A model generated the notes under the pieces. It had not been told where the DNA came from and did not search any database. It saw only the letters and a list, made by a program, of their open reading frames with translations. Of a stretch of DNA of 64,000 nt, positions 33,139 to 57,312 are shown piece after piece. Made by a program: the position numbers and the translations under genes. The stretch comes from Stutzerimonas kunmingensis. Its GTDB lineage: Bacteria > Pseudomonadota > Gammaproteobacteria > Pseudomonadales > Pseudomonadaceae. The stretch is from positions 3,038,001 through 3,102,000 of the forward strand of contig NZ_CP090366.1 of the NCBI RefSeq assembly GCF_021432085.1, read 5' to 3'. Each line of letters starts with the position of its first letter. The first letter of the stretch is position 1.

Positions 33139-33618
33139 TCAGATGCTCTCAAGCTCGGCCCATTCTTCTTCGCTCATCATCTTGTCGAGTTCGACCAGAA
33201 TCAGCAGCTCGCCGTTCTTGTTGCAGACGCCCTGAATGAATTTGGCCGACTCATCATTACCGACGTTGGGCGCAGTTTCGATCTCGGATTGGCGAAGATA
33301 GACCACCTCGGCAACGCTATCGACCATGATCCCGATGACCTGACGATCCGCCTCGATGATCACGATTCGAGTATTGTCCGATACCGACGCGGTTTCCAGG
33401 CCGAAACGCTGACGCGTGTCGATCACCGTCACCACATTGCCGCGCAGGTTGATGATGCCGAGCACATAGCTCGGAGCACCCGGTACCGGCGCGATCTCGG
33501 TATAACGCAACACCTCCTGGACCTGCATCACGTTGATACCGTACGTCTCGTTGTCCAGACGGAAGGTCACCCATTGCAGTACAGGATCTTCGGAACCTTG
33601 CGCAGACGTCATCTTCAT
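33139..33618 (-). CDS. cheW: chemotaxis coupling protein CheW
   Basis: CheW of 159 aa. Typical segments are LQWVTFRLDNETYGINVMQVQEVLR, APSYVLGIINLRGNVVTVIDTR and EIDNRIVI-like TRIVIIEADRQVIGIMVDSV. It couples chemoreceptors to CheA. The ATG at 33618 gives the usual length and has AAGG upstream; a second ATG two codons on is possible. It is the last signalling gene of the cheY-to-cheW series. Confidence 0.96.
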   Translation of the reverse strand: MKMTSAQGSEDPVLQWVTFRLDNETYGINVMQVQEVLRYTEIAPVPGAPSYVLGIINLRGNVVTVIDTRQRFGLETASVSDNTRIVIIEADRQVIGIMVDSVAEVVYLRQSEIETAPNVGNDESAKFIQGVCNKNGELLILVELDKMMSEEEWAELESI

Positions 33619-33701
33619 AGCCCCACCTTCTTCAGTTACCGCAATGGCGGTCGATTCTATCGCCGGGCCGCGCAACAGGCGCGACCGTCAATTGTTTGCT
33701 T

Positions 33702-34502
33702 TCAATGCGTCCGCGGCTTCGTCGCGCCCTGCATCTGTTTCACAGCGCCACTGGCGATCAGCTCGGCCAGCGCAGTCACGTCGACCAGCGCGCACATATG
33801 CTCGATTACCGTACCGGCCAGCCATGGACGCTGACTGCGCTGCGTACGCCACTTGACCTCACTGGGGTCGAGGCGAATCGAGCGACTGACCTGATGGACC
33901 GCCAGCCCCCATTCGTAGCCCTGAACCGAGATCACGTACTGCAACCCCTCGCGGAAGTCGTCACGATACCGATCAGGCATCACCCAGCGCGCGGTGTCCA
34001 GCACCTTCAGATTGCCTGACTGGCTCGGCAGTATGCCAAGAAACCAGTCGGGCTGACCGAACAGCGGCGTCAGTTCCTGCCCGGCCAGCGGATAGATGGA
34101 GCCCAGACACACCAGCGGCACCGCCAGGGTCAACCCTGCCACATCGAACAGCAGGCACTCGAAAGGCTCCTCCCCCCAACCCGGATGGGCGTCAGGCACG
34201 GCTTCGACTGGCTCGCTGGGCAGCTGCGGCGCAACCTCGAGCTCCACGACCGGCTCAATAGTCGGCACCGGCGGCATCGTTAGAGGCGCTTCCACCACGG
34301 GCGGCGGCGCCGGCTGGACTATTTCAAGACGCGGCGGTTGGCTCTGCCGCGTATCACGCAGTTGCTCCTCGAGCACGGCCGCCTGGAATTCGTCCTGACT
34401 GACCGAGTCGGCCAGTTCAATGGCAGCGTCCTGCAACAGCCCATCGAGATAGGACTGCAGCGCCTGCTGGGATCGGGTTTCGGTTAGGACGGTGCGGCTC
34501 AT
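33702..34502 (-). CDS. parP: ParP-like protein (CheW/AIF domain)
   Basis: Protein of 266 aa. A helical N-terminus and a long Pro/Val/Glu linker (about residues 55-110) precede a CheW-like domain (FECLLFDVAGLTLAVPLVCLGSIYPL... GLAVHQVSRSIRLDPSEVKWR). It lies between a ParA-type gene and cheW, as parP does in Vibrio. There ParP binds CheA and ParC to keep the chemotaxis array at the flagellated pole. The name is from architecture and order. Confidence 0.82.
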   Translation of the reverse strand: MSRTVLTETRSQQALQSYLDGLLQDAAIELADSVSQDEFQAAVLEEQLRDTRQSQPPRLEIVQPAPPPVVEAPLTMPPVPTIEPVVELEVAPQLPSEPVEAVPDAHPGWGEEPFECLLFDVAGLTLAVPLVCLGSIYPLAGQELTPLFGQPDWFLGILPSQSGNLKVLDTARWVMPDRYRDDFREGLQYVISVQGYEWGLAVHQVSRSIRLDPSEVKWRTQRSQRPWLAGTVIEHMCALVDVTALAELIASGAVKQMQGATKPRTH

Positions 34503-34589: not shown

Positions 34590-35378
34590 TCACGCCACCT
34601 GCGGAGACACTTGCGACGCCAGCAGATGCTTGAGCAAGGCCCGATAGGCAAGAACCGCACGACTGGTCGGATCGAACTGCGAAGGCGTCAGGCCGGCGCG
34701 GCTGGCATCGCGCAGCCGCGTATCGACCGGGATGAACGCTGGCCAGAGATGATCGGCATAACCGGCTCGCAGTACCTTGAGCGTATTCATCGAGGCCTGG
34801 GTGCGGCGGTCGAACAAGGTCGGCACGATGGTGTAAGGCAGCGCTTGCTTGCGCGAACGGTTGATCATCGACAGCGTGCTGACCATTCGCTCGAGACCCT
34901 TCATCGCCAGAAACTCCGTCTGCACCGGAATCACCAGCTGCTGACTGGCAGCCAGCGCGTTGACCATCAGCACACCGAGCAGCGGCGGGCTGTCGATGAT
35001 GGCGTAATCGAAGTCCTGCCAAAGCTGCGACAGGCTCTTGGCAATGACCAGCCCGAGGCCGTTCTGCCCGGGCGACTGGCGCTCGAGTGTCGCCAGCACG
35101 GTACTGGAAGGCATCAGCGAGATACGCTCGTGACTGGTGGCCAGCAGCAGCTGCCACGGCAGGCCATCCGGCACGGTACCCTGGTGCTGGAAGAGATCGA
35201 AGACGCTATGGTCCAGGTTATCGGGATCATGCCCGAAATAGCTGGTCATCGACCCATGTGGATCCAGATCCAGCACGACGACGCGCTTGCCGGAATCGGC
35301 CAGCAAGCCCGCCAGTGCGATCGACGTAGTGGTCTTGCCCACCCCACCCTTTTGATTGGCTACAGCCCAGACTCTCAT
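34590..35378 (-). CDS. parC: ParC-like ParA-family ATPase
   Basis: MinD/ParA-type ATPase of 262 aa with the deviant Walker A NQKGGVGKTTTSIALA, VVLDLDPHGSMTSYFG and the switch segment YAIIDSPPLLGVL. The start MRVWAVANQ at 35378 is chosen; the longer ORF adds residues with no family match. In Vibrio the equivalent ParC positions chemotaxis arrays at the pole through ParP. Its place between motD and the ParP-like gene supports the same role here. Confidence 0.88.
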   Translation of the reverse strand: MRVWAVANQKGGVGKTTTSIALAGLLADSGKRVVVLDLDPHGSMTSYFGHDPDNLDHSVFDLFQHQGTVPDGLPWQLLLATSHERISLMPSSTVLATLERQSPGQNGLGLVIAKSLSQLWQDFDYAIIDSPPLLGVLMVNALAASQQLVIPVQTEFLAMKGLERMVSTLSMINRSRKQALPYTIVPTLFDRRTQASMNTLKVLRAGYADHLWPAFIPVDTRLRDASRAGLTPSQFDPTSRAVLAYRALLKHLLASQVSPQVA

Positions 35379-35465
35379 TGATCTTCCACCCGGCGAAGCT
35401 GACCGGAACGGCATTGCCTGAAAACGGCAAAGCGACGGTGTTTTGACGACTGCGCCCTGAAGCGC

Positions 35466-37070: not shown

Positions 37071-38186
37071 TCAGATGCACGCCTCGGCCAGATTGCGACC
37101 GATATCGTCGAGCCCGTAGACCGCATCACTCAGGTTGGCTTTGACCACCGCCATCGGCATGCCATAGATCACGCAGCTGGCTTCATCCTGCGCCCACACC
37201 TGGCTGCCGCTCTGCTTGAGCAACCGTGCGCCTTCGCGACCATCGGCACCCATGCCGGTCAGCACCACCGCCAGCACCTTGTCGTGAAACGACTTGGCGG
37301 CCGAACCGAAGGTAACGTCGACGCAAGGCTTGTAGTTGAGGCGATCATCGCCCGGCAGGATGCGAACCGCACCGCGGCCATCGATCATCATCTGCTTGCC
37401 ACCCGGTGCCAGCAAAGCAAGCCCCGGACGCAGTACATCGCCGTCTTCGGCTTCCTTGACACGAATGCGGCAAAGCTTGTCCAGACGATCGGCGAAGGCT
37501 TTGGTGAACGCGGCCGGCATGTGCTGGATGAGCACGATCGGCGCGGGGAAATTCGCCGGGAGCTGAGTGAGCACACGCTGCAGCGCCACCGGACCGCCAG
37601 TAGACGTACCAATGGCCACCAGCTTATACGCCTTGCGCTTGGGCGCCGGCGAACGAGCTGCCGGCGCCGCGGGCGCTGGCGTTGTAGCGCCGATCCGGGG
37701 CGCTGCAGTAGCCAATGTCGAGGCAGTGCCACGCGCGGATACCGGCGGCGTACTTACGCTCGAGGTACAGAACGTGCTGTAGCGCCGGTTGCTGCGCGAG
37801 ACGGTATGTACCTTCTCGCACAGCAGCTGCTTGACCTTATCCGGGTTACGCGAAATGTCTTCGAAGTTCTTCGGCAGATAGTCGACGGCGCCGGCATCCA
37901 GTGCATCGAGGGTGACCCGAGCGCCTTCGTGCGTCAGCGAGGAAAACATCAACACCGGTGTGGGGCAGCGCTGCATGATCTGCCGCACCGCCGTGATGCC
38001 GTCCATCATCGGCATCTCGTAGTCCATGGTGATGACATCCGGCTTCAACGCCAGCACCTGGTCGATCGCCTCGCGTCCGTTGGTGGCGGTGCCGACGACC
38101 TGGATATTCGAATCAGAGGAAAGGATTTCCGAGACGCGCCGACGAAAGAAGCCGGAATCGTCGACGACCAGGACCTTGACTGCCAT
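37071..38186 (-). CDS. cheB: chemotaxis protein-glutamate methylesterase CheB
   Basis: CheB of 371 aa. A receiver domain (Asp55 in VITMDYEMPMMDG) is joined by an Ala/Pro-rich linker (about residues 145-180) to the methylesterase domain. The catalytic serine is in AIGTSTGGPVAL, the His in LIQHMPAAFT and the Asp in VVLTGMGADG. It demethylates receptors for adaptation. No cheR is in the window. Confidence 0.96.
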   Translation of the reverse strand: MAVKVLVVDDSGFFRRRVSEILSSDSNIQVVGTATNGREAIDQVLALKPDVITMDYEMPMMDGITAVRQIMQRCPTPVLMFSSLTHEGARVTLDALDAGAVDYLPKNFEDISRNPDKVKQLLCEKVHTVSRSNRRYSTFCTSSVSTPPVSARGTASTLATAAPRIGATTPAPAAPAARSPAPKRKAYKLVAIGTSTGGPVALQRVLTQLPANFPAPIVLIQHMPAAFTKAFADRLDKLCRIRVKEAEDGDVLRPGLALLAPGGKQMMIDGRGAVRILPGDDRLNYKPCVDVTFGSAAKSFHDKVLAVVLTGMGADGREGARLLKQSGSQVWAQDEASCVIYGMPMAVVKANLSDAVYGLDDIGRNLAEACI

Positions 38187-38244: not shown

Positions 38245-40437
38245 TCAAATCCTGCGTGCGTAGCGCTTGAGCATGCTGGGAACATCGAGAATCAGCGCGA
38301 TGCGGCCATCGCCGGTGATCGTCGCACCGGACATGCCAGGCGTACCCTGCAGCATCTTGCCAAGCGGCTTGATGACCACTTCTTCCTGTCCCACGAGCTG
38401 ATCGACGACGAAGCCGATGCTCTGATTGCCGACGCTGAGAATTACTACATGGCCTTCACGCTGCTCTTCCTGAGCCGCATCGTTGACCAGCCAGCGCTTG
38501 AGGTAGAACAGCGGCAGCGCCTTGTCGCGGACGATCACCACTTCCTGGCCATCGACGACGTTGGTCCGCGACAGGTCGAGGTGGAAGATCTCGTTGACGT
38601 TGACCAGCGGGAAGGCGAAGGCCTGGTTGCCGAGCATGACCATCAGGGTCGGCATGATCGCCAGGGTCAGCGGCACCTTGATCACCACCCGCGAGCCCTG
38701 GCCCTTGGTGGAGAACACGTTCACTGTGCCATTGAGCTGGGAAATCTTGGTCTTGACCACGTCCATGCCGACACCGCGGCCGGACACGTCGGAAATCTCG
38801 GTCTTGGTCGAGAAGCCCGGCGCGAAGATCAGGTTATAGCACTCCAGGTCGCTCAGGCGATCGGCGGCATCCTTCTCCAGCATGCCTTTCTCGACGGCCT
38901 TGGCGCGCAGGACGTTGGCATCCATACCCTTGCCGTCATCACTGATGATCAACAGGATATGGTCGCCTTCCTGCTCGGCGGAAAGCACTACCCGTCCGGT
39001 ACGTGGCTTGCCGGCGGCTTCGCGCTCCTCGGGCATCTCGATACCGTGGTCGACCGCGTTGCGCACCAGGTGCACCAGCGGATCGGCCAGGGCTTCGACC
39101 AGGTTCTTGTCGAGGTCGGTTTCTTCACCGACGAGCTCAAGGTTGATCTCTTTCTTCAGGCTGCGAGCCAGGTCGCGGACCAGGCGCGGGAAGCGACCGA
39201 AGACCTTCTTGATCGGCTGCATGCGGGTCTTCATCACCGCACTCTGCAGATCGGCCGTCACCACGTCGAGGTTGGAGACGGCCTTGGCCATCGCCTCGTC
39301 GCCGCTGTTGGAGCCCAGGCGTACCAGACGGTTACGCACCAGCACCAGCTCGCCGACCATGTTCATGATCTCGTCCAGGCGTGCGGTATCGACGCGCACG
39401 GTGGTCTCGGCCTCGGCCGGAGGCTTTTCCGCCGGAGCAGCAGCGGCCGGCTTGCTCACCGCAGCTGCCGGAGCGGCCTTGGCCGGAGCAGCAGCAGGGG
39501 CAGGCTTGGGCGCCGGTTTGATCGGCACAGCCGCAGCAGGTTCAGCCGGGGTCTCGACGACCGCAGGCTCGAACTTGCCCTTGCCATGCAGTTGATCGAG
39601 CAGTGCTTCGAACTCGTCGTCGGTGATCTCGTCAGCTGCACCAGCTGTACCACCGCCCTTTGCCGGTTCGGCGCTTGCCGGCGCAGCGGGTTCAGCCGGG
39701 GCCGCTTCGAACTTGCCCTTGCCATGCAGCTGGTCCAGCAAGGCTTCAAATTCGTCATCGGTGATTTCGTCACTGGTCGGCGCAGCAACGAACTCGCTCT
39801 CGGCAGGCATCGAGGCACCCGCAGCGGCAGAGAATTGTCCCTTGCCATGCAGCTGGTCGAGCAGCGACTCGAATTCGTCGTCGGTAATCTCGTCGGTGGC
39901 AGGGCCAGTCGCTACTTCGGCCGCAGCCGGCTCGCTGGCGGACGGCTGAATGGCATCGAGCATCTGTTCGAATTCGCTATCGGCGCCCTCGGACCGGGAT
40001 TCGGCCACGACCTGCGGTTCGACTGCCGGCGCTGGCTCATCAGCCGAGGCTGGCTCCGCCAGACGTGCCAGCGCCGCAAGCAACTCACGCGAGGCTGGCG
40101 TCGGCTCGACGCGCTCGCGGACCTGGCTGAACATCGCGTTCACGGCGTCGAGCGCCTGCAGAACGACATCCATCAGTTCGGAATCGACTCGACGCTCACC
40201 CTTGCGCAGGATGTCGAAGACGTTTTCGGCGATATGGCAGCACTCCACCAGCTCATGCAGCTGGAGGAACCCGGCACCGCCCTTGACCGTATGGAACCCG
40301 CGAAAAATCGCATTGAGCAACGCCATGTCATCGGGGCTGCTTTCCAGCTCCACGAGTTGCTCGGACAATAGTTCGAGAATCTCGCCGGCCTCTACCAGGA
40401 AGTCCTGGAGGATTTCTTCATCGGCGTCGAAGCTCAT
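38245..40437 (-). CDS. cheA: chemotaxis histidine kinase CheA with triple repeat linker
   Basis: CheA of 730 aa. The P1 Hpt domain carries His49 in FHTVKGGAGF. A long acidic/Ala-Pro region (about 125-345) holds three near-identical 22-residue repeats (181-202, 222-243, 268-289; core EITDDEFEALLDQLHGKG) and a degenerate copy at 153-164. Then come P3 dimerisation (LDEIMNMVGELVLVRNRL), P4 kinase (LVRNAVDHGIE, DDGKGMD, GRGVGMDVV) and the P5 CheW-like domain. No ordinary globular P2 is evident. The ATG at 40437 has GGGGAAG upstream. The repeats resemble the CheZ C-terminus. Confidence 0.96.
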   Translation of the reverse strand: MSFDADEEILQDFLVEAGEILELLSEQLVELESSPDDMALLNAIFRGFHTVKGGAGFLQLHELVECCHIAENVFDILRKGERRVDSELMDVVLQALDAVNAMFSQVRERVEPTPASRELLAALARLAEPASADEPAPAVEPQVVAESRSEGADSEFEQMLDAIQPSASEPAAAEVATGPATDEITDDEFESLLDQLHGKGQFSAAAGASMPAESEFVAAPTSDEITDDEFEALLDQLHGKGKFEAAPAEPAAPASAEPAKGGGTAGAADEITDDEFEALLDQLHGKGKFEPAVVETPAEPAAAVPIKPAPKPAPAAAPAKAAPAAAVSKPAAAAPAEKPPAEAETTVRVDTARLDEIMNMVGELVLVRNRLVRLGSNSGDEAMAKAVSNLDVVTADLQSAVMKTRMQPIKKVFGRFPRLVRDLARSLKKEINLELVGEETDLDKNLVEALADPLVHLVRNAVDHGIEMPEEREAAGKPRTGRVVLSAEQEGDHILLIISDDGKGMDANVLRAKAVEKGMLEKDAADRLSDLECYNLIFAPGFSTKTEISDVSGRGVGMDVVKTKISQLNGTVNVFSTKGQGSRVVIKVPLTLAIMPTLMVMLGNQAFAFPLVNVNEIFHLDLSRTNVVDGQEVVIVRDKALPLFYLKRWLVNDAAQEEQREGHVVILSVGNQSIGFVVDQLVGQEEVVIKPLGKMLQGTPGMSGATITGDGRIALILDVPSMLKRYARRI
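39571..39897 (-). repeat. three 66-bp coding repeats in cheA
   Basis: Copies at 39832-39897, 39709-39774 and 39571-39636 encode 22-residue units that differ at only a few positions; spacing is 123 and 138 bp. The DNA copies are also alike, with mainly synonymous differences. A fourth, degenerate copy is at 39946-39981. Confidence 0.92.
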
Positions 40438-40448
40438 ATTCACTTCCC

Positions 40449-41243
40449 CTAAAAGCCCAGGCTTGAAAGCAGATCATCGACATCGTCCTGGCCGGAAACG
40501 ACGTCTTCACGCATATCGGCATGCATCTGCGGACCTTCACCCTTGGAAGGCTCTTTTTCTTGTTTTTTCTTTTCCTGCTCGGCGCGCATCGCTTCGCGGT
40601 CATGCTGGATGCCCGCCACGCGATCGACCTGCCCCGCCATCAGGACCAGGTTAAGCAGGTTGCTTTCGAGTTCAGTGATGAGACGCGTCACTCGCTTGAT
40701 CACCTGGCCCGTCAGGTCCTGGAAGTCCTGCGCGAGCATGATTTCGCTGAGGTTCTGCGACAGCTGGCCGCCATCGTTCATGCTGCGCTGCAGGTACTGG
40801 TCGATGCGCTTGACCAGATCGCGGAACTGATCGGCATTCATCTCACGACGCATGAAGCGCTGCCAGTCGGCTGTCAGGCTCTGCGCCTCATAGCTCACGT
40901 AGTTCACCAGCGGCGCTGATTCTTCGACCAGGTCCATGGTGCGGTTGGCAGCCTTCTCGGTCATCTCCACCACGTAGGACAGGCGATCGGTCGCGTCCGT
41001 GATCGGCGACGGATCACCGCCAGTGGCGCAGGTGTCCATCTCGAGCTTGACGATGGCGTTGTGCAGCTCTCGGGTGAGCTTGCCAACCTCCAGATAGAGC
41101 CCGTGGTTGCGCACCTGATTCAGCTCATTGAACATCTGCGTCGCTTCATCGAAGCGGCCCTGCTGCAGACTTTCGATCAACTTGGGTGCATGCGCCTTCA
41201 GAGTTGCTTCGAACTCTGCCAGGCTTTGGTCTGCTTGCGTCAT
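40449..41243 (-). CDS. cheZ: protein phosphatase CheZ
   Basis: CheZ of 264 aa, helical. The catalytic region is LAQDFQDLTGQVIKRV (as MLAQDFQDLTGQVIKRVTRLI), where the glutamine acts on phospho-CheY. A disordered Lys/Glu linker (EQEKKKQEKEPSKGEG) leads to the C-terminal CheY-binding peptide DDVDDLLSSLGF. It ends the CheY signal. It lies between cheY and cheA. Confidence 0.96.
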   Translation of the reverse strand: MTQADQSLAEFEATLKAHAPKLIESLQQGRFDEATQMFNELNQVRNHGLYLEVGKLTRELHNAIVKLEMDTCATGGDPSPITDATDRLSYVVEMTEKAANRTMDLVEESAPLVNYVSYEAQSLTADWQRFMRREMNADQFRDLVKRIDQYLQRSMNDGGQLSQNLSEIMLAQDFQDLTGQVIKRVTRLITELESNLLNLVLMAGQVDRVAGIQHDREAMRAEQEKKKQEKEPSKGEGPQMHADMREDVVSGQDDVDDLLSSLGF

Positions 41244-41266: not shown

Positions 41267-41641
41267 TCAGCCGTTGACGCGCTCGAAGATCTTCTCGATC
41301 TTCTCCTTGAGCACCTGGGCAGTGAAAGGCTTGACCACATAGCCGTTAACCCCGGCCTGGGCGGCTTCGATGATCTGATCGCGTTTCGCTTCGGCCGTCA
41401 CCATCAGCACCGGCAGGTGCTTGAGGCGCTCATCGGCACGCACGGTGCGCAGCAGATCGATTCCGCTCATTCCCGGCATGTTCCAGTCGGTCACCAGGAA
41501 GTCGAAGCTGCCGCTCTTGAGCATCGGCAGCGCGGTAGTACCGTCATCCGCTTCAGCGGTGTTGGTGAACCCCAGATCACGCAGGAGGTTCTTGATGATT
41601 CGTCTCATCGTCGAGAAGTCATCGACGATGAGGATTTTCAT
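41267..41641 (-). CDS. cheY: chemotaxis response regulator CheY
   Basis: Single receiver domain of 124 aa. The acidic pocket is VDDFSTMRR, the phospho-acceptor is Asp52 in VTDWNMPGM, the switch threonine is in MVTAEAKRD, and the lysine is in YVVKPF. It carries the signal to FliM. The ATG at 41641 (MKILIVDDF) is standard; an in-frame start at 41674 is less likely. It begins 74 bp after fliA stops, in the same direction. Confidence 0.97.
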
Positions 41642-41715
41642 GTTCTTGTCCAAGTCGACCTCCGTAAGTCCCAAAATGCCTCAGCAAACCGAGCACGTCA
41701 TACCGCAAACAATCG

Positions 41716-46806: not shown

Positions 46807-46866
46807 CGTAGCCCCCGGGGATACAGAACGAATTCTTGACGCGACAAGCGTCCTGCCCGGGTTATA

Positions 46867-46882
46867 GCAAGAAGGGGTCCAA
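46867..46882 (-). promoter_or_regulatory. sigma54-type promoter of flhA
   Basis: On the minus strand TTGGACCCCTTCTTGC keeps GG-N10-GC and the perfect TTGC -12 box; the -24 box is TGGACC instead of TGGCAC. It lies 60 bp before the flhA ATG, a distance like that of the fliE promoter. Confidence 0.65.
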
Positions 46883-47027
46883 CTTCTGCGGCCCGTCGCA
46901 GAGCCCGCCGCACGGTCTGTCCCTAGCCAGACCTGCGAGCCGCCGCGCCAGCGAACGCCAACGACAACTGGCAGTCACACTAGCAACCGGCGACAGCCCG
47001 TCGCCGTTTGTACAAAGGAGCTTCCAG

Positions 47028-47549
47028 ATGAAACAGTGGATCATCGCCGCGCTGGCCGGCTGCACTGCGGTCGCCGTTCAGGCTGATACATTGAACGTCA
47101 AGGTGAACGCCGTGACGGCCCAGGGCGTCGGCGAATCGGTCGGCAGCGTCAAGATCGAAAACAGCGAATACGGGCTGGTGTTCCGCCCCGAGCTATCGGG
47201 CCTGCAGCCTGGCGCCCACGGCTTTCACGTTCACGCCAAGGGCAGTTGCGAGCCGGCCGAGATCGATGGCAAGCAGACCCCGGCTGGCGCAGCGGGCGGT
47301 CACTGGGACCCGAAGAACAGCGGCAAGCATGGCGAACCCTGGGGTGACGGCCATATGGGCGACCTGCCGGCGCTGTACGTCGACAGCGAGGGCAAAGCCA
47401 GTCAGCCAGTGCTGGCGCCGCGCCTGAAGAGCCTGGGCGATATCAAAGGCTTGGCGCTGATGGTTCACCAGGGCGGAGACAATCATTCCGACCATCCGCA
47501 ACCCCTCGGCGGTGGCGGTGCGCGGGTCGCCTGCGGCGTCATCGAATAA
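47028..47549 (+). CDS. sodC: periplasmic Cu/Zn superoxide dismutase
   Basis: SodC of 173 aa with a signal peptide ([19 protein letters not shown]) and the metal-binding pattern [34 protein letters not shown] and [12 protein letters not shown]. The last conserved segment is [13 protein letters not shown], containing the second disulfide cysteine. It converts superoxide to peroxide and oxygen in the periplasm. It has an AAAGGAG ribosome site. It lies on the plus strand between flhA and flhB, against the flagellar direction. Confidence 0.96.
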
Positions 47550-51015: not shown

Positions 51016-51489
51016 TCAGCGCAGCTTCTTGATGCGTTCGGTCGGGCTGATCACATCGGTCAGCCGGATGCCGAACTTCTCGTTGACCACCACCACCTCG
51101 CCGTGGGCGATGAGCGTGCCATTGACCAATACGTCCAGCGGCTCGCCAGCCAGACGATCGAGCTCCACCACCGAGCCCTGGTTGAGCTGCAGCAGGTTGC
51201 GGATGCTGATTTCGGTACTGCCGACCTCCATCGAGATGGAAACCGGGATGTCGAGGATCACATCCAGGTTCGGGCCGTCCAGCCCCAGCTGCACGCCATT
51301 GGACTTGGGTGCGCTGGCGAAATCCTCCAGCGGTGCGCGCGGAGCGGCCGGGGCGGCTGCTTCCGGGCCCTGATTCAGCAGCGCATCGATGTCGTCCTGG
51401 CTGGCGTCGCCGGCTTCGGCCAGCGCTGCAGCCCATTCATCGGCCAGCGCCTGTTCCTCGGGGGAGGTGTTGTCGTGTTCGTCTGCCAT
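51016..51489 (-). CDS. fliN: flagellar switch protein FliN
   Basis: FliN of 157 aa. A variable acidic N-terminus (MADEHDNTSPEEQALADEWAAALAEAG) precedes the SpoA domain (DVILDIPVSISMEVGSTEISIRNLLQLNQGSVVELDRLAGEPLDVLVNGTLIAHGEVVVVNEKFGIRLTDV in outline). It forms the C-ring with FliM and FliG. The ATG at 51489 fits; the longer ORF runs back into fliM. It lies 40 bp after fliM. Confidence 0.96.
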   Translation of the reverse strand: MADEHDNTSPEEQALADEWAAALAEAGDASQDDIDALLNQGPEAAAPAAPRAPLEDFASAPKSNGVQLGLDGPNLDVILDIPVSISMEVGSTEISIRNLLQLNQGSVVELDRLAGEPLDVLVNGTLIAHGEVVVVNEKFGIRLTDVISPTERIKKLR

Positions 51490-51529
51490 CGCTAATCCTC
51501 GATCGGCTCGAATTGAGTAAAGGGCTGGC

Positions 51530-52501
51530 TCAGCGTGGGCGGACCACGGGCTCCAGCACCTGCAATGCCAGGTTGCCTTTGTGGGCACCCAGCTTGACCT
51601 TGAAGGACGGCATGCCATTGGCACGCATGATCATGTCTTCTGGCATTTCCACCGGGATCACGTCGCCCGGCTGCATGTTCAGAATGTCGCGCAATTTCAG
51701 TTGCCGCCTGACGACAGTCGCGCCGAGCGGAACGTTGACGTCGAGAATGTCTTCGCGCAGCGCCTTGACCCAACGCTCATCCTGGTCACTGACGTCCGAC
51801 TGGAAGCCGGCATCCAGCATCTCGCGGATCGGCTCGATCATCGAATAAGGCATGGTCACGTGCAGGTCGCCGCCGCCGCTGTCCAGTTCGATGTGGAAGG
51901 TGGAAACCACCACCACTTCGCTGGGGCTGACGATGTTGGCCAGGGCCGGATTCACTTCCGAGTTGACGTACTCGAAGTTGACGTCCAGCACCGCGTGCCA
52001 GGCTTCCTTGAGATCGGTGAAGGCCTGATCGAGCACCATGCGTACGACTCGCAACTCGGTCGGGGTGAACTCGCGCCCCTCGATCTTGGCGTGGCGACCG
52101 TCGCCGCCGAAGAAGTTGTCCACCAGCTTGAACACCAGCTTGGCGTCGAGAATGAACAGCGCCGTGCCACGCAGCGGCTTCATCTTCACCAGATTGAGGC
52201 TGGTGGGTACATACAGCGAATGCACGTACTCGCCGAACTTCATCACCTGCACGCCACCGACCGACACATCGGCCGAGCGACGCAGCAGGTTGAACATGCT
52301 GATGCGGGTGTAACGGGCGAAACGCTCGTTGATCATTTCCAGGGTGGGCATGCGCCCGCGAACGATGCGGTCCTGACTGGTCAGGTCATAGCTCTTGATG
52401 GATCCCGGCTCGGAATCGCTTTCGGTATCCACCAGACCGTCGTCGACCCCGTGCAGGAGCGCATCGATCTCGTCTTGCGAGAGCAGGTCTTGAACAGCCA
52501 T
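51530..52501 (-). CDS. fliM: flagellar switch protein FliM
   Basis: FliM of 323 aa. The N-terminal CheY-binding peptide is LLSQDEIDALLHGVDDG, followed by the middle domain (GKG-type GTALFILDAKLVFKLVDNFFGG) and the C-terminal SpoA domain (NVPLGATVVRRQLKLRDILNMQPGDVIPVEM). It receives CheY-P and sets rotation direction. The start MAVQDLLSQDE at 52501 is 13 bp after the fliL stop. Confidence 0.97.
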   Translation of the reverse strand: MAVQDLLSQDEIDALLHGVDDGLVDTESDSEPGSIKSYDLTSQDRIVRGRMPTLEMINERFARYTRISMFNLLRRSADVSVGGVQVMKFGEYVHSLYVPTSLNLVKMKPLRGTALFILDAKLVFKLVDNFFGGDGRHAKIEGREFTPTELRVVRMVLDQAFTDLKEAWHAVLDVNFEYVNSEVNPALANIVSPSEVVVVSTFHIELDSGGGDLHVTMPYSMIEPIREMLDAGFQSDVSDQDERWVKALREDILDVNVPLGATVVRRQLKLRDILNMQPGDVIPVEMPEDMIMRANGMPSFKVKLGAHKGNLALQVLEPVVRPR

Positions 52502-52514
52502 CTGCGGCAGCCTT

Positions 52515-53048
52515 CTATTGCAATACGAAGTTGGTGAAAAGCACTTGCTCGACGGCAAGCTTGCCAATTTCCTTCTGCGCCAGTTCCTGCACGCTGGCAG
52601 TCGCCTGCTGACGCAGCATCTCCTTGCCCACGGGCGTTTTCAACGCCTCGAAGTCCTGACTGGAGAACAGCATGACCAATCGGTTGCGCAACAACGGCAT
52701 ATGCACTTTCAGTGCATCCAGCGCAGCCTGATCACGCGACATCAACGCAATGCTGACCTGCATGTAACGCTGGCGCCCCTTGTTGCTGAAATTGACCACG
52801 AAGGCCGGCATCAGGACTTCATAGATCGCCGGCTGCTTGCCGGAGGCAGTGGTCGCGGCCTCTTCGGCCTTGTCGTCACCAAGGTCGCCGCCCTTGTTCA
52901 TGAAGTAAAGCGTACCGCCGATGGAAAGCCCTACGGCCACCAACATGGCGACCACGATCACCAGGATGAGTTTCAGCTTTCCCTTGCCTGCCGGTTCCGC
53001 TTCCGGTCCGGTTGGCGGCACTGTTGGTGGAGCCTGTTTCTTAGCCAT
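52515..53048 (-). CDS. fliL: flagellar stator-associated protein FliL
   Basis: FliL of 177 aa with a short Pro-rich cytoplasmic N-terminus, one membrane helix (about residues 25-47, LKLILVIVVAMLVAVGLSIG) and a periplasmic domain (FVVNFSNKGRQRYMQVSIALMSRD) ending in the family motif VEQVLFTNFVLQ. It surrounds and supports stators. It heads the fliL-to-flhB operon and has a perfect sigma54 box upstream. Confidence 0.96.
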   Translation of the reverse strand: MAKKQAPPTVPPTGPEAEPAGKGKLKLILVIVVAMLVAVGLSIGGTLYFMNKGGDLGDDKAEEAATTASGKQPAIYEVLMPAFVVNFSNKGRQRYMQVSIALMSRDQAALDALKVHMPLLRNRLVMLFSSQDFEALKTPVGKEMLRQQATASVQELAQKEIGKLAVEQVLFTNFVLQ

Positions 53049-55076: not shown

Positions 55077-56768
55077 TTATGCCTCAGCCTGCCAGGCGAA
55101 CTCCACGCTCAGCCCGCGCCCATCCGACTGCCAGTCGAATCGGTCGCTCAACTGGCGCACCAGATGTAAGCCGCGCCCACTGAAGCGGTCGCTGCCAAAC
55201 TGCGCCTGCAACGCGCGCGACACGTCGAAGCCCGAGCCGCTGTCGCTGATGCCGATGCGCAGGCGCCCTCCATGCGGGGAGGTCTTGATGTTCAGCTGCA
55301 GATGCACATGACCGTCGACCAACGCCTGCAGGCGTTGTTGGCGTAAGTCGTAGTAATGCTTGAAACCGTCGGCATCACACTTGAGGCTCGAATCGAGTCC
55401 GAGCACGCCATGCTCCAGGGCATTGGAATAGAGCTCGCCCAACACGGTGTAGATCTCACCGACACGCGAGCGCAACTGATTGACCTGCAGCAGGATCTGC
55501 AGCAACGAAGGCAATGGATTGCCGCTGCGCAGGCTGTCGGCACGCAGCTCGAGCCGAATCGACCAGTCCATCGGCCGTGAGCGGTGCGCGGTGGCCGGGG
55601 CAATCGACGGCATCGTGATCACCTCCGGGCTGACCACGACCTCGACCAGGCTCAGGTCGTCGTGCTGCTGGCCGTGGAAATCCAGCAGCGCCTGCTCGAT
55701 CTCGCCGAACAGCCGTGCCGGATCGTCGTTGGCGTCCAGAGTGGCTAGCAGGCGCTGTTCGCCGAACAGCTCGTCATTGGCATTGCGGCTCTCGACCACG
55801 CCGTCGGACAGCAGCAACAGCCGGTCGCCGGGGGCCAAGGGGTAATGCTCGAACTTGTTGTCCAGCGCCGCCGGGGAGACGACGCCGAGCGGCAGGTGAC
55901 GGGACACCAGCGCCGTGCGCCGACCATCCGCGCCGATCAGGTAGCCATCCGGCAACCCGCCATTCCACACCCGCAGACTGCCCTGCTTGGGATCGATATC
56001 GAGCAGCGTCGCGCAGCAGAACATTTCCACCGGGAGGATCTGTTTGAGCTTGGCATTCATCTCTCGAAGGATGTCGGTGCTCGAATAGCCTTTCGCCGCC
56101 ATCCCGTAAAAGGTTTCCGCCAGCGGCATGGCCCCGATCGCGGCGGGCAGCCCGTGGCCGGTGAAATCTCCGAGCAGGACAAACATCTGCCCCGCCGGGG
56201 CCTGCGCCGCCAGCAGCAGGTCGCCGTTGAACAGCGCCTGCGGCGACTGGCGGAAGCGGATGGTGGGCGCGCTCAGGCAACCAGCATGTGCGACTTTGTC
56301 GAAGATCGCCTTGGCAGCCCGATGTTCGTCGAGCAGCTGCTGATTGCGCCTGGCGATCAGGTCGCGCTGCTCGAGCACGGTCGCCTGCAGGCGGCGCAGA
56401 CGATGCATGGCCTGAATCTTGGCTTCGAGAATGATCGGGTTGTAAGGCTTGGCGATGAAGTCGTCGCCGCCAGCCTCGAGGCAGCTGACCAGCGCTTCGT
56501 GCTCGGTCAGCGAGGTGAGAAAGATGATCGGGACCAGCTCATCGCCGGCCAGTTGCTTGATGCGCCGCGCCGCCTCGAAGCCGTCCATCACCGGCATCAG
56601 CGCGTCCATCAGCACCAGCTGCGGCCGCTCCTCCTGAAACAGCTCGACCGCCTCCTGCCCATCGGCTGCCGTCAGCACCCGGTGGCCCTGCTTGGCAACG
56701 ATGGTGGAAAGCAGCATCCGATCGACCGGGCTGTCCTCGGCGATCAGGATCGACAGCCGCATGGGCAT
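55077..56768 (-). CDS. hsbR: HsbR-like response regulator with PP2C phosphatase and kinase domains
   Basis: Three-domain protein of 563 aa. An N-terminal receiver (Asp55 in LVLMDALMPVMDG) is followed by a SpoIIE/PP2C-type phosphatase (about 165-385; LLGDFTGHGLPAAIGAMPLAETF, LLLLSDGVVESRN). The C-terminal GHKL anti-sigma-type kinase domain has N-box YSNALEHGVL and DSGSGFDVSRALQ. This is the HsbR arrangement, able to phosphorylate and dephosphorylate the antagonist HsbA. The ATG is 1 bp after the hsbA stop. Confidence 0.9.
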   Translation of the reverse strand: MPMRLSILIAEDSPVDRMLLSTIVAKQGHRVLTAADGQEAVELFQEERPQLVLMDALMPVMDGFEAARRIKQLAGDELVPIIFLTSLTEHEALVSCLEAGGDDFIAKPYNPIILEAKIQAMHRLRRLQATVLEQRDLIARRNQQLLDEHRAAKAIFDKVAHAGCLSAPTIRFRQSPQALFNGDLLLAAQAPAGQMFVLLGDFTGHGLPAAIGAMPLAETFYGMAAKGYSSTDILREMNAKLKQILPVEMFCCATLLDIDPKQGSLRVWNGGLPDGYLIGADGRRTALVSRHLPLGVVSPAALDNKFEHYPLAPGDRLLLLSDGVVESRNANDELFGEQRLLATLDANDDPARLFGEIEQALLDFHGQQHDDLSLVEVVVSPEVITMPSIAPATAHRSRPMDWSIRLELRADSLRSGNPLPSLLQILLQVNQLRSRVGEIYTVLGELYSNALEHGVLGLDSSLKCDADGFKHYYDLRQQRLQALVDGHVHLQLNIKTSPHGGRLRIGISDSGSGFDVSRALQAQFGSDRFSGRGLHLVRQLSDRFDWQSDGRGLSVEFAWQAEA

Positions 56769-56769
56769 G

Positions 56770-57075
56770 TCAGGCGATCACGAATAATTGTTCGAAATTC
56801 GACACCGACAGGATCTTGCGCACGTCGCCGTTGCAGTTGAGCAGGCGGATGTCCGCCTCGTCGCCACCGGCGTGATCGCGCAACAAGAGCAGCATGCCCA
56901 GCGCCGAACTGTCCATGTAAGTGGTGCCTTGCAGATTGACCACATAACGCTGCGGATTCACGTCCTGACGTTGGTAAGCATCACGGAAGGCCTGATGCGC
57001 ATTGAAGTCGAAGCGTCCGCTGATGGATATGGTCAACTCCTGGCCATCCGTCGAAGGCTGCGAGGTAATGGTCAT
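56770..57075 (-). CDS. hsbA: HsbA-like STAS anti-sigma factor antagonist
   Basis: STAS-domain protein of 101 aa with the phospho-acceptor region NLQGTTYMDSSALGMLLLL (serine in MDSSALG). In P. aeruginosa HsbA binds FlgM when unphosphorylated, freeing sigma28, and a diguanylate cyclase when phosphorylated. The start MTITSQPSTDG at 57075 is chosen; the longer frame has no family match. The 237-bp stretch upstream (57076-57312) to fliJ shows no convincing gene or promoter. Confidence 0.87.
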   Translation of the reverse strand: MTITSQPSTDGQELTISISGRFDFNAHQAFRDAYQRQDVNPQRYVVNLQGTTYMDSSALGMLLLLRDHAGGDEADIRLLNCNGDVRKILSVSNFEQLFVIA

Positions 57076-57312
57076 GTGGCACTCCTGATCCGGTACGTCT
57101 TGAAAGCGGCTTGCGAGCAGCCGTCGCGATAAGCGAAATGAACAGCCGTGTACCGGCTGAAAGGCGGCCATCCGGTTCTGAGACTTATCCTCGGAAGAGC
57201 CAGATGGCAGCGGAAACGATCTGTTGGCGGTCGCCGCGCTGAAACGCGGTCAAGATTTATCATTCAAGCAGCGGTACGGCAAGCACGAATCCGGCCTGAG
57301 ACCGTGGCTGGA

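Follow-up and report, generated by a model that had tools for sequence, protein, structure and literature searches.

A CheA linker without a detected P2 domain carries conserved helical repeats that may serve as docks for CheY and CheB

Introduction

A CheA kinase that lacks P2, the CheY-binding domain between P1 and P3, must still collect CheY and CheB. According to Berry et al., over half of all CheAs are without P2 and have an unstructured linker, and how these kinases recruit CheY has been left open (PMC10542144; here and below, published work is cited for those parts of the text that were available). The same question is raised by the cheA gene in a stretch of 64,000 nucleotides from Stutzerimonas kunmingensis (contig NZ_CP090366.1, positions 3,038,001 to 3,102,000; the whole stretch is called the window in the following), which encodes several near-identical copies of a short unit in the linker between P1 and P3. 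The original prediction for this DNA had compared these copies to the CheY-binding tail of CheZ and suggested that they either replace P2 as a multivalent CheY dock or form an element read by a ParP-like protein. We describe the repeats, their distribution and their possible readers, and propose them as a conserved candidate answer to the recruitment question in a widely studied group.

Results and discussion

Selection maintains a repeated unit in the CheA linker

The cheA open reading frame (ORF; 38245-40443, minus strand) starts with GTG at 40443 and encodes 732 amino acids, in which Pfam recognizes Hpt/P1 (residues 10-102), P3 (347-406), P4 (454-593), and P5/CheW (600-727). It lies in the order cheY-cheZ-cheA-cheB, followed by other genes and then by parC-like, parP-like, and cheW genes; an overlapping ORF on the plus strand (38449-40371) is read as a shadow ORF. 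A search for DNA repeats found 66-nucleotide repeats within cheA at 39569-39634, 39707-39772, and 39830-39895 and a shorter fourth copy at 39956-39983, the latter as a member of a 28-nucleotide repeat family. In the translation, these correspond to repeat 1 (39832-39897, minus strand; residues 183-204, TDEITDDEFESLLDQLHGKGQF), repeat 2 (39709-39774, minus strand; residues 224-245, SDEITDDEFEALLDQLHGKGKF), and repeat 3 (39571-39636, minus strand; residues 270-291, ADEITDDEFEALLDQLHGKGKF), which all read DEITDDEFE[AS]LLDQLHGKG[KQ]F and all lie in the P1-P3 linker, and to a degenerate repeat 0 (39946-39981, minus strand; residues 155-166, DSEFEQMLDAIQ).

The copies have diverged in their DNA far more than in their peptide. 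Copies 2 and 3 differ in 9 of 18 codons and all nine differences are synonymous, as are seven of the eight between copies 1 and 2 and five of the six between copies 1 and 3. The purely synonymous differences between copies 2 and 3 therefore indicate that the peptide is under selection, i.e., the repeat is kept by selection and a chance origin is excluded. A recent DNA duplication without selection was considered as well and is ruled out by the same synonymous divergence between copies. When a profile of the unit (20 columns built from 52 units, i.e., 51 of 78 non-redundant units plus one from the window, the 27 units left outside being mostly degenerate first copies) was run against the whole 4.78-Mb genome, the three CheA copies came first (E 3e-12, 3e-12, and 4e-11) and the degenerate copy fourth (E 0.13), followed by two matches at 0.48 and 4.8. 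Three near-identical 22-residue units and a degenerate fourth had been predicted, and both are confirmed by these results; the residue numbers given at the time are consistent with an ATG two codons downstream and are thus offset by two from the GTG-start ORF.

The linker has short predicted helices and no detected P2

Pfam searches of the window CheA up to E 1 found Hpt, H-kinase_dim, HATPase_c, and CheW, and neither P2 nor a CheY-binding domain. AlphaFold2, run on residues 1-363 with an alignment of 80 rows, gave a P1 with a predicted local distance difference test (pLDDT) score of about 97 and a low-confidence linker that is interrupted by isolated helices at 155-164, 188-199, 229-240, and 275-285, which lie at the four copies; no folded P2 appeared in this model between P1 and P3. 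The model of the N-terminal half of Vibrio mimicus CheA looks alike: besides a confident P1 it has helices at 188-199, 233-244, and 287-298 and a further, shorter helix at 306-312, and it again lacks a folded P2. The prediction for both proteins is thus a disordered linker in which each copy forms a helix of about 12 residues, with starts spaced at intervals of 30-55 residues. Ala, Pro, and acidic residues abound in the linker of the window CheA, and a search with this linker against PDB sequences returned nothing relevant. A Foldseek search of the PDB with the window model yielded P1/Hpt domains and designed helix bundles as best matches; the P1-P2 chain of 2lp4 was matched over 151 columns at 12.9 Å, and we take its P1 to be the part matched.

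Relatives of this kinase gave the same picture. Hpt was found in all 80 repeat-bearing CheA N-halves, and P2 or CheY-binding families were absent from the 25 of 52 Pfam families listed for them as well as from the 25 of 33 listed for 39 Vibrio-type CheAs, where a match in a single member could be hidden. A P2 elsewhere in CheA had been named beforehand as the observation that would speak against the prediction, and Pfam and AlphaFold2 revealed none, which bears out the statement that this CheA is without a clear globular P2. The P1-P3 linker of the window CheA and its sampled relatives hence combines the lack of a detected P2 with 1-4 copies of a conserved unit.

The repeat is widespread among gammaproteobacterial CheAs

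The CheA sample was built with the window CheA as query (cut-off E<=1e-100), which matched 118 of 274 class-level genomes; wide loci were taken for 80 of the 118 and short loci for others, giving 90 distinct CheAs. The core motif was found as a pattern in 80 of these 90, with three copies in 38 proteins, two in 27, one in 8, and four in 7, so that the count of copies in CheA homologues suggested by the original prediction indeed shows several copies, from 1 to 4, across the class. The ten motif-less CheAs are one truncated ORF and nine CheAs of other kinds, and the repeat profile recovered 81 of the 90 at E<=1e-3, the truncated ORF among them. The 204 units collected follow the consensus D-[ED]-I-[TS]-[DE]-[DE]-E-F-[ED]-A-L-L-D-x-L-H-G-x-G, in which Phe at the core position (204 of 204) is partly built in, the pattern having admitted only Phe or Tyr there; with this position left free, it was Phe in 186 of 188 units, Tyr in one, and Cys in one.

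In an alignment of the N-terminal halves, the mean frequency of the top residue is 0.76 for copy 2 and 0.73 for copy 3, similar to P1 (0.76), compared to 0.34-0.39 in the linker stretches that follow copies 1, 2, and 3. Since gaps were scored as a residue, little weight can be given to the values for copy 1 (0.47) and the degenerate copy (0.84). Columns with at least 90% identity number five each in copies 2 and 3 and 0-2 in the other linker stretches, and the repeats are therewith the main conserved elements from P1 to P3. A scan of named species found three core motifs in 80 of 80 CheAs from Vibrio, Photobacterium, Aliivibrio, Shewanella, Pseudoalteromonas, Aeromonas, and others, though its search patterns included the repeat motif and the scan is biased to that extent. 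The CheAs of V. mimicus and V. anguillarum have three linker repeats each, and one sampled CheA from the same class as the window (L153) is 97% identical to that of Vibrio fortis. Across a phylum-level set, the profile matched 62 of 398 genomes at E<=1e-5, all of them from the class of the window or closer; among the matches listed, the ORFs are CheA-sized (625-870 amino acids) save in G391 and G543, two many-contig genomes in which the cheA gene is probably split. From these sequence comparisons, the motif is widespread and deeply conserved in gammaproteobacterial CheAs.

Repeat-bearing and P2-bearing CheAs do not overlap

The Pfam CheY-binding domain was found in 33 of the 398 genomes and the repeat in 62, with an overlap of 0 where 5.1 would be expected (hypergeometric p 0.003, ignoring phylogeny; that both scans cover the same 398 genomes is judged from equal size and handles). 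Likewise, none of 30 P2-bearing CheAs, taken from 30 of the 34 matches in the 33 genomes, has the repeat motif (best E 0.12). Even within the order of the window, both types occur, P2 in some families and the repeat in others. P2-bearing and repeat-bearing CheAs probably belong to different CheA classes; the labels F6 and F7, as applied to CheAs of this sample, are our assumption. The exclusion fits a replacement of P2 by the repeats, with ancestry explaining part of it.

The repeat unit resembles FliM at its front and CheZ at its back

The window encodes several peptides with which the repeats can be compared, i.e., the C-terminal tail of CheZ (40449-41243, minus strand; Pfam CheZ 1.9e-74; GQDDVDDLLSSLGF), the N-terminal peptide of FliM (51530-52567, minus strand; DLLSQDEIDALLHGVD), and the N-terminal region of FliN (51016-51624, minus strand; SQDDIDALLNQG), which resembles the CheY-binding peptide of FliM. 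The FliM N-terminus and the CheZ C-terminus are known to bind CheY at its alpha4-beta5-alpha5 face (touched on in PMC3774744). All three peptides share with the CheA repeat that they are short and acidic and show [DE][DE]-hydrophobic-[DE]-x-L-L, which in the CheA repeats lies in a predicted helix. FliM N-termini could be read from 14 of 19 loci in the window and other genomes (five gave no ORF); ten are exactly LSQDEIDALL, three are one residue off, and one is two off.

We scored these peptides with repeat-derived matrices against 689,117 background windows. A matrix of 11 residues that takes in the N-terminal part of the unit placed the FliN N-terminus in the top 3.5e-5 of these windows, the FliM N-terminus in the top 6e-5, and the CheZ tail in the top 2e-3; a 7-residue core matrix gave 2.9e-4 for FliN, 2.4e-5 for FliM, and 5.0e-4 for CheZ, and a 10-residue matrix that takes in the C-terminal part roughly equal values of 2.3e-4, 3.6e-4, and 4.2e-4, respectively. 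Judged from these scores, the likeness to FliM is at the front of the unit and that to CheZ at its back. The CheZ tail was thus rejected as the best single comparison (2e-3 versus 6e-5 for FliM on the 11-residue matrix and 4.2e-4 versus 3.6e-4 on the 10-residue one). Searched for as a DNA pattern, [DE][DE]-hydrophobic-[DE]-x-L-L occurs at 60 places in the genome compared to 34 for a control read backward; its six sites in the window are the three CheA repeats, CheZ, FliN, and FliM, which the pattern had been chosen to cover, so that the count is descriptive.

Separately, the CheZ or presumed CheZ tails of three other loci (L103, SQDDADSLLDDLGI; L076, VTQDEIDDILSDLGF; L155, SQDEVDDLLSSLGF) bridge the patterns of FliM N-termini and CheZ C-termini. 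Membership of the repeats in the SHOCT family (PF09851) is doubtful, with 24.4 bits for the full protein at a cut-off of 27; the N-half of the window CheA reaches 28.6 bits with no single stretch above the cut-off. Matches to SHOCT up to E 0.1 occur in 70 of 80 CheA N-halves, but SHOCT is a short C-terminal domain, whereas the CheA repeats are internal and in tandem and cover only positions 12-27 of the 28 in its profile.

ParC and ParP are neighbors of many repeat-bearing CheAs

The linker of this kind of CheA is no stranger to the literature: the AIF domain of Vibrio ParP binds a part of CheA called LID (localization/location and inheritance domain), for which a position between P2 and P3 and a restriction to genomes with ParC and ParP have been reported (PMC5706961, PMC7534058). 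The window CheA has the corresponding location, a linker before P3 with genes for a ParC-like ParA ATPase (34590-35414, minus strand; Pfam AAA_31) and a ParP-like protein with a CheW-like AIF domain (33702-34502, minus strand; Pfam CheW and family alignment) downstream of cheA. Vibrio LID and the repeats thus share the same linker, the same kind of CheA, and adjoining ParC/ParP genes. As conservation between P1 and P3 is concentrated in the repeats, at least one of them very probably falls within LID. The descriptions differ in two respects, in that P2 was found in Vibrio CheA neither by Pfam nor by AlphaFold2, and in that the repeat also occurs where ParC and ParP are undetected.

A ParC-like match is present in 61 of the 80 repeat-bearing loci, with a mean copy number of 2.5; the remaining 19 mix true absence and short contigs. 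Four genomes that are 96-100% complete (G022, G170, G025, and G010) have repeat-bearing CheAs with 1, 1, 1, and 2 copies, respectively, and no ParC orthologue, their only ParA proteins being 32-34% identical to ParC compared to 39% or more for likely orthologues in the set. The ParP profile had no match in G025 and none above 33.4 bits in the other three (for comparison, the window CheW scores 30 bits and the window ParP 205 bits), where a divergent ParP could be missed. The CheW-like matches in the four loci all turned out to be ordinary CheW. Within the roughly 13 kb around cheA, no ORF combines a ParP N-terminus with the RPWLAG-type signature; the same check does pick up ParP in the window, L036, L098, and L104. 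In G001, a further genome with a completeness of 91%, there are four copies, again with ParC and ParP both undetected. The profile does miss divergent ParPs, giving only 15-17 bits to a ParP-like protein in L104 and perhaps to one in L102. Barring such cases, the persistence of repeats in the four genomes implies that ParP is not the sole reader. The idea that the repeats are read by the ParP-like protein stays plausible, as a published LID lies in this linker, and would not account for everything if the four genomes truly lack ParC and ParP.

As to ParP itself, its N-terminal region loosely resembles the CheA repeat in the window (SVSQDEFQAAVLEEQL) and in L165 (SISLDEFEAAVIEEQV). An ORF of 327 amino acids in L102 (G165) has a ParP-like N-terminus (ALDDYLDALLSE) and a CheW-like domain scoring 16.5 bits on the ParP profile, and is possibly a divergent or chimeric ParP.

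What may read the repeats

A P2-less kinase must still collect CheY and CheB, and we propose the linker helices as docks. Each helix, with the core ITDDEFEALLDQLHG, would be a short linear docking motif, and 1-4 of them on flexible tethers beside P1 would form low-affinity, multivalent docks. The array would do the job of P2, the domain (PF07194, PF09078) whose position between P1 and P3 it shares, by keeping CheY, and probably CheB as well, close to P1 so that phosphotransfer can take place, though as short helices in a predicted disordered linker instead of a folded domain. The helices would bind the alpha4-beta5-alpha5 face of receiver domains, as known for the FliM and CheZ peptides, and in genomes with ParC and ParP one or more copies would be, or overlap, the LID read by ParP, such that the same array may act in signalling as well as in anchoring at the pole. 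Candidate readers in the window are CheY (41267-41674, minus strand; NCBIfam equivalog PRK10610), in which this face is conserved, and CheB (37071-38186, minus strand; Pfam receiver and methylesterase) as a second receiver-domain protein. Among 95 distinct CheYs the face is conserved, with Q94 and V103 at 98-99% and R92 at 84%, which FliM and CheZ would explain too. As indirect support for such docks, the residues that changed when CheY was recruited from F6 to F7 CheA include three that face P2 and five that face P1 (PMC7184735), and Q94, V103, and R92 are the three that face P2. Indirect support also comes from Pseudomonas aeruginosa, described as lacking ParC/ParP-related genes, where CheY-eYFP colocalizes with CheA at the pole (PMC12410967; the CheA of that species was not identified here), whereas another paper mentions potential ParC/ParP orthologues in Pseudomonas (PMC12918733).

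We give an array of helical docks for CheY and CheB that takes the place of P2, with ParP as a second or rival reader, an even chance of being correct. The missing P2, the several copies, their deep conservation, and the lack of any overlap between repeat and P2 speak for it, as do the selection on the peptide, the high rank of the FliM and FliN N-termini on the 11-residue matrix, and the persistence of the motif where ParC and ParP are undetected, and the unspecific nature of the resemblance speaks against. Several observations weigh on the latter side. The DNA-ligase helix ISDAEFDELL, taken as a specificity control after the repeat profile had found only DNA-ligase and thioredoxin stretches in the PDB (E 1.5-9.6), scores 23.7 on the repeat matrix versus 7.3 for the FliM N-terminus, and none of the background windows equals it. 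The resemblance is therefore unspecific and much of it the likeness of a generic helix start; I/L-[ST]-x-x-E-hydrophobic is a common helix N-cap. Searched genome-wide up to E 10, the repeat profile misses FliM, FliN, and CheZ, and a specific likeness to them beyond generic helix starts is thus not supported. The near-invariant Phe of the repeat is replaced by Ile in FliM and FliN of the window and by Val in CheZ, its conserved LHG end has no counterpart in FliM, and, unlike those peptides, it stands in tandem inside a kinase with CheY binding that is putative. Accordingly, the predicted alignment of the repeat core with the CheZ tail reflects a real likeness, yet one that is unspecific and, on the 11-residue matrix, closer for FliM and FliN. 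Among the nine sampled CheAs without repeat, only that of L108 has a Pfam CheY-binding match, and when the linkers of L106, L107, L112, and L113, four of the repeat-less ones, were compared to PDB sequences, no P2 came up. Moreover, the exclusion of P2 and repeat follows lineages and probably CheA class and may hence come from shared ancestry instead of functional replacement, and the published binding data that we found for this linker concern ParP only (PMC5706961, PMC7534058).

These last data are the strength of an alternative in which the repeats are LID alone, i.e., a multivalent dock for the ParP AIF domain that retains CheA within the array and, through ParC, anchors it at the pole. 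It would agree with the very probable location of the repeats within LID, with the ParC-like protein in most repeat-bearing loci, and with a ParP profile that overlooks divergent members, but the four nearly complete genomes and G001 carry repeats without detected ParC or ParP, and we consider it possible but rather unlikely that LID function is the whole story. The helices could instead bind inside the array (to CheA P1, P4, or P5, CheW, or receptors) and tune kinase activity or packing, which finds some favor in the similar acidic, helix-like tail with which CheW often ends (SEEEWAELESI in the window). A copy number of 1-4 is unlike a fixed structural contact, however, and we regard such binding as improbable; the AlphaFold2 models speak to the N-half only. 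That the repeats are a passive spacer whose sequence caps helices and which has no partner would suit the composition of the linker (Ala, Pro, and acidic residues) and its predicted disorder, but hardly the synonymous-only divergence of copies and residues that are near-invariant across families, and seems very improbable indeed.

Compared to the array of docks proposed for CheY and CheB, a broader scenario is considerably more tentative, and we would sooner doubt than defend it: a tandem array of FliM-like helices may have replaced P2 in a large flagellar CheA lineage (Vibrio, Shewanella, Alteromonadales, and the family of the window) and work as a multivalent antenna that gathers CheY and CheB, with ParP reading the same helices and anchoring and signalling being in competition or coupled. 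If the proposed docking were true, LID would be redefined as a repeated short motif that is broader than ParC/ParP, and one set of helical motifs in the CheA linker, FliM, FliN, CheZ, and perhaps CheW would appear to be wired to a common partner. We found no description of these CheA repeats in titles and the beginnings of abstracts of a mostly open literature, though the 2014 LID paper may show part of them. The available text of the LID descriptions holds no multi-copy motif (PMC5706961, PMC7534058), and that of the published version of Berry et al. has neither "motif" nor "LID" (PMC10782961); the comparison also took in the available parts of PMC11940527, PMC11978298, and PMC7154110.

Other genes of the window

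The CheW of the window (33139-33675, minus strand) ends in MMSEEEWAELESI, which is near the CheA repeat pattern with Trp replacing Phe, and a repeat-like tail pattern is matched by 37 of 66 CheW-like ORFs in the loci sampled. Going by these sequences, the CheW tail may belong to the same motif set. Farther away, a gene for a Cu/Zn superoxide dismutase (46836-47549, plus strand; Sod_Cu 2e-33) lies on the opposite strand between genes that we take to be flhA-like and flhB-like. At 55077-57171 (minus strand), a protein with receiver, SpoIIE phosphatase, and HATPase domains is followed by a small ORF resembling an anti-sigma-factor antagonist, a pair that is presumably HsbR/HsbA-like.

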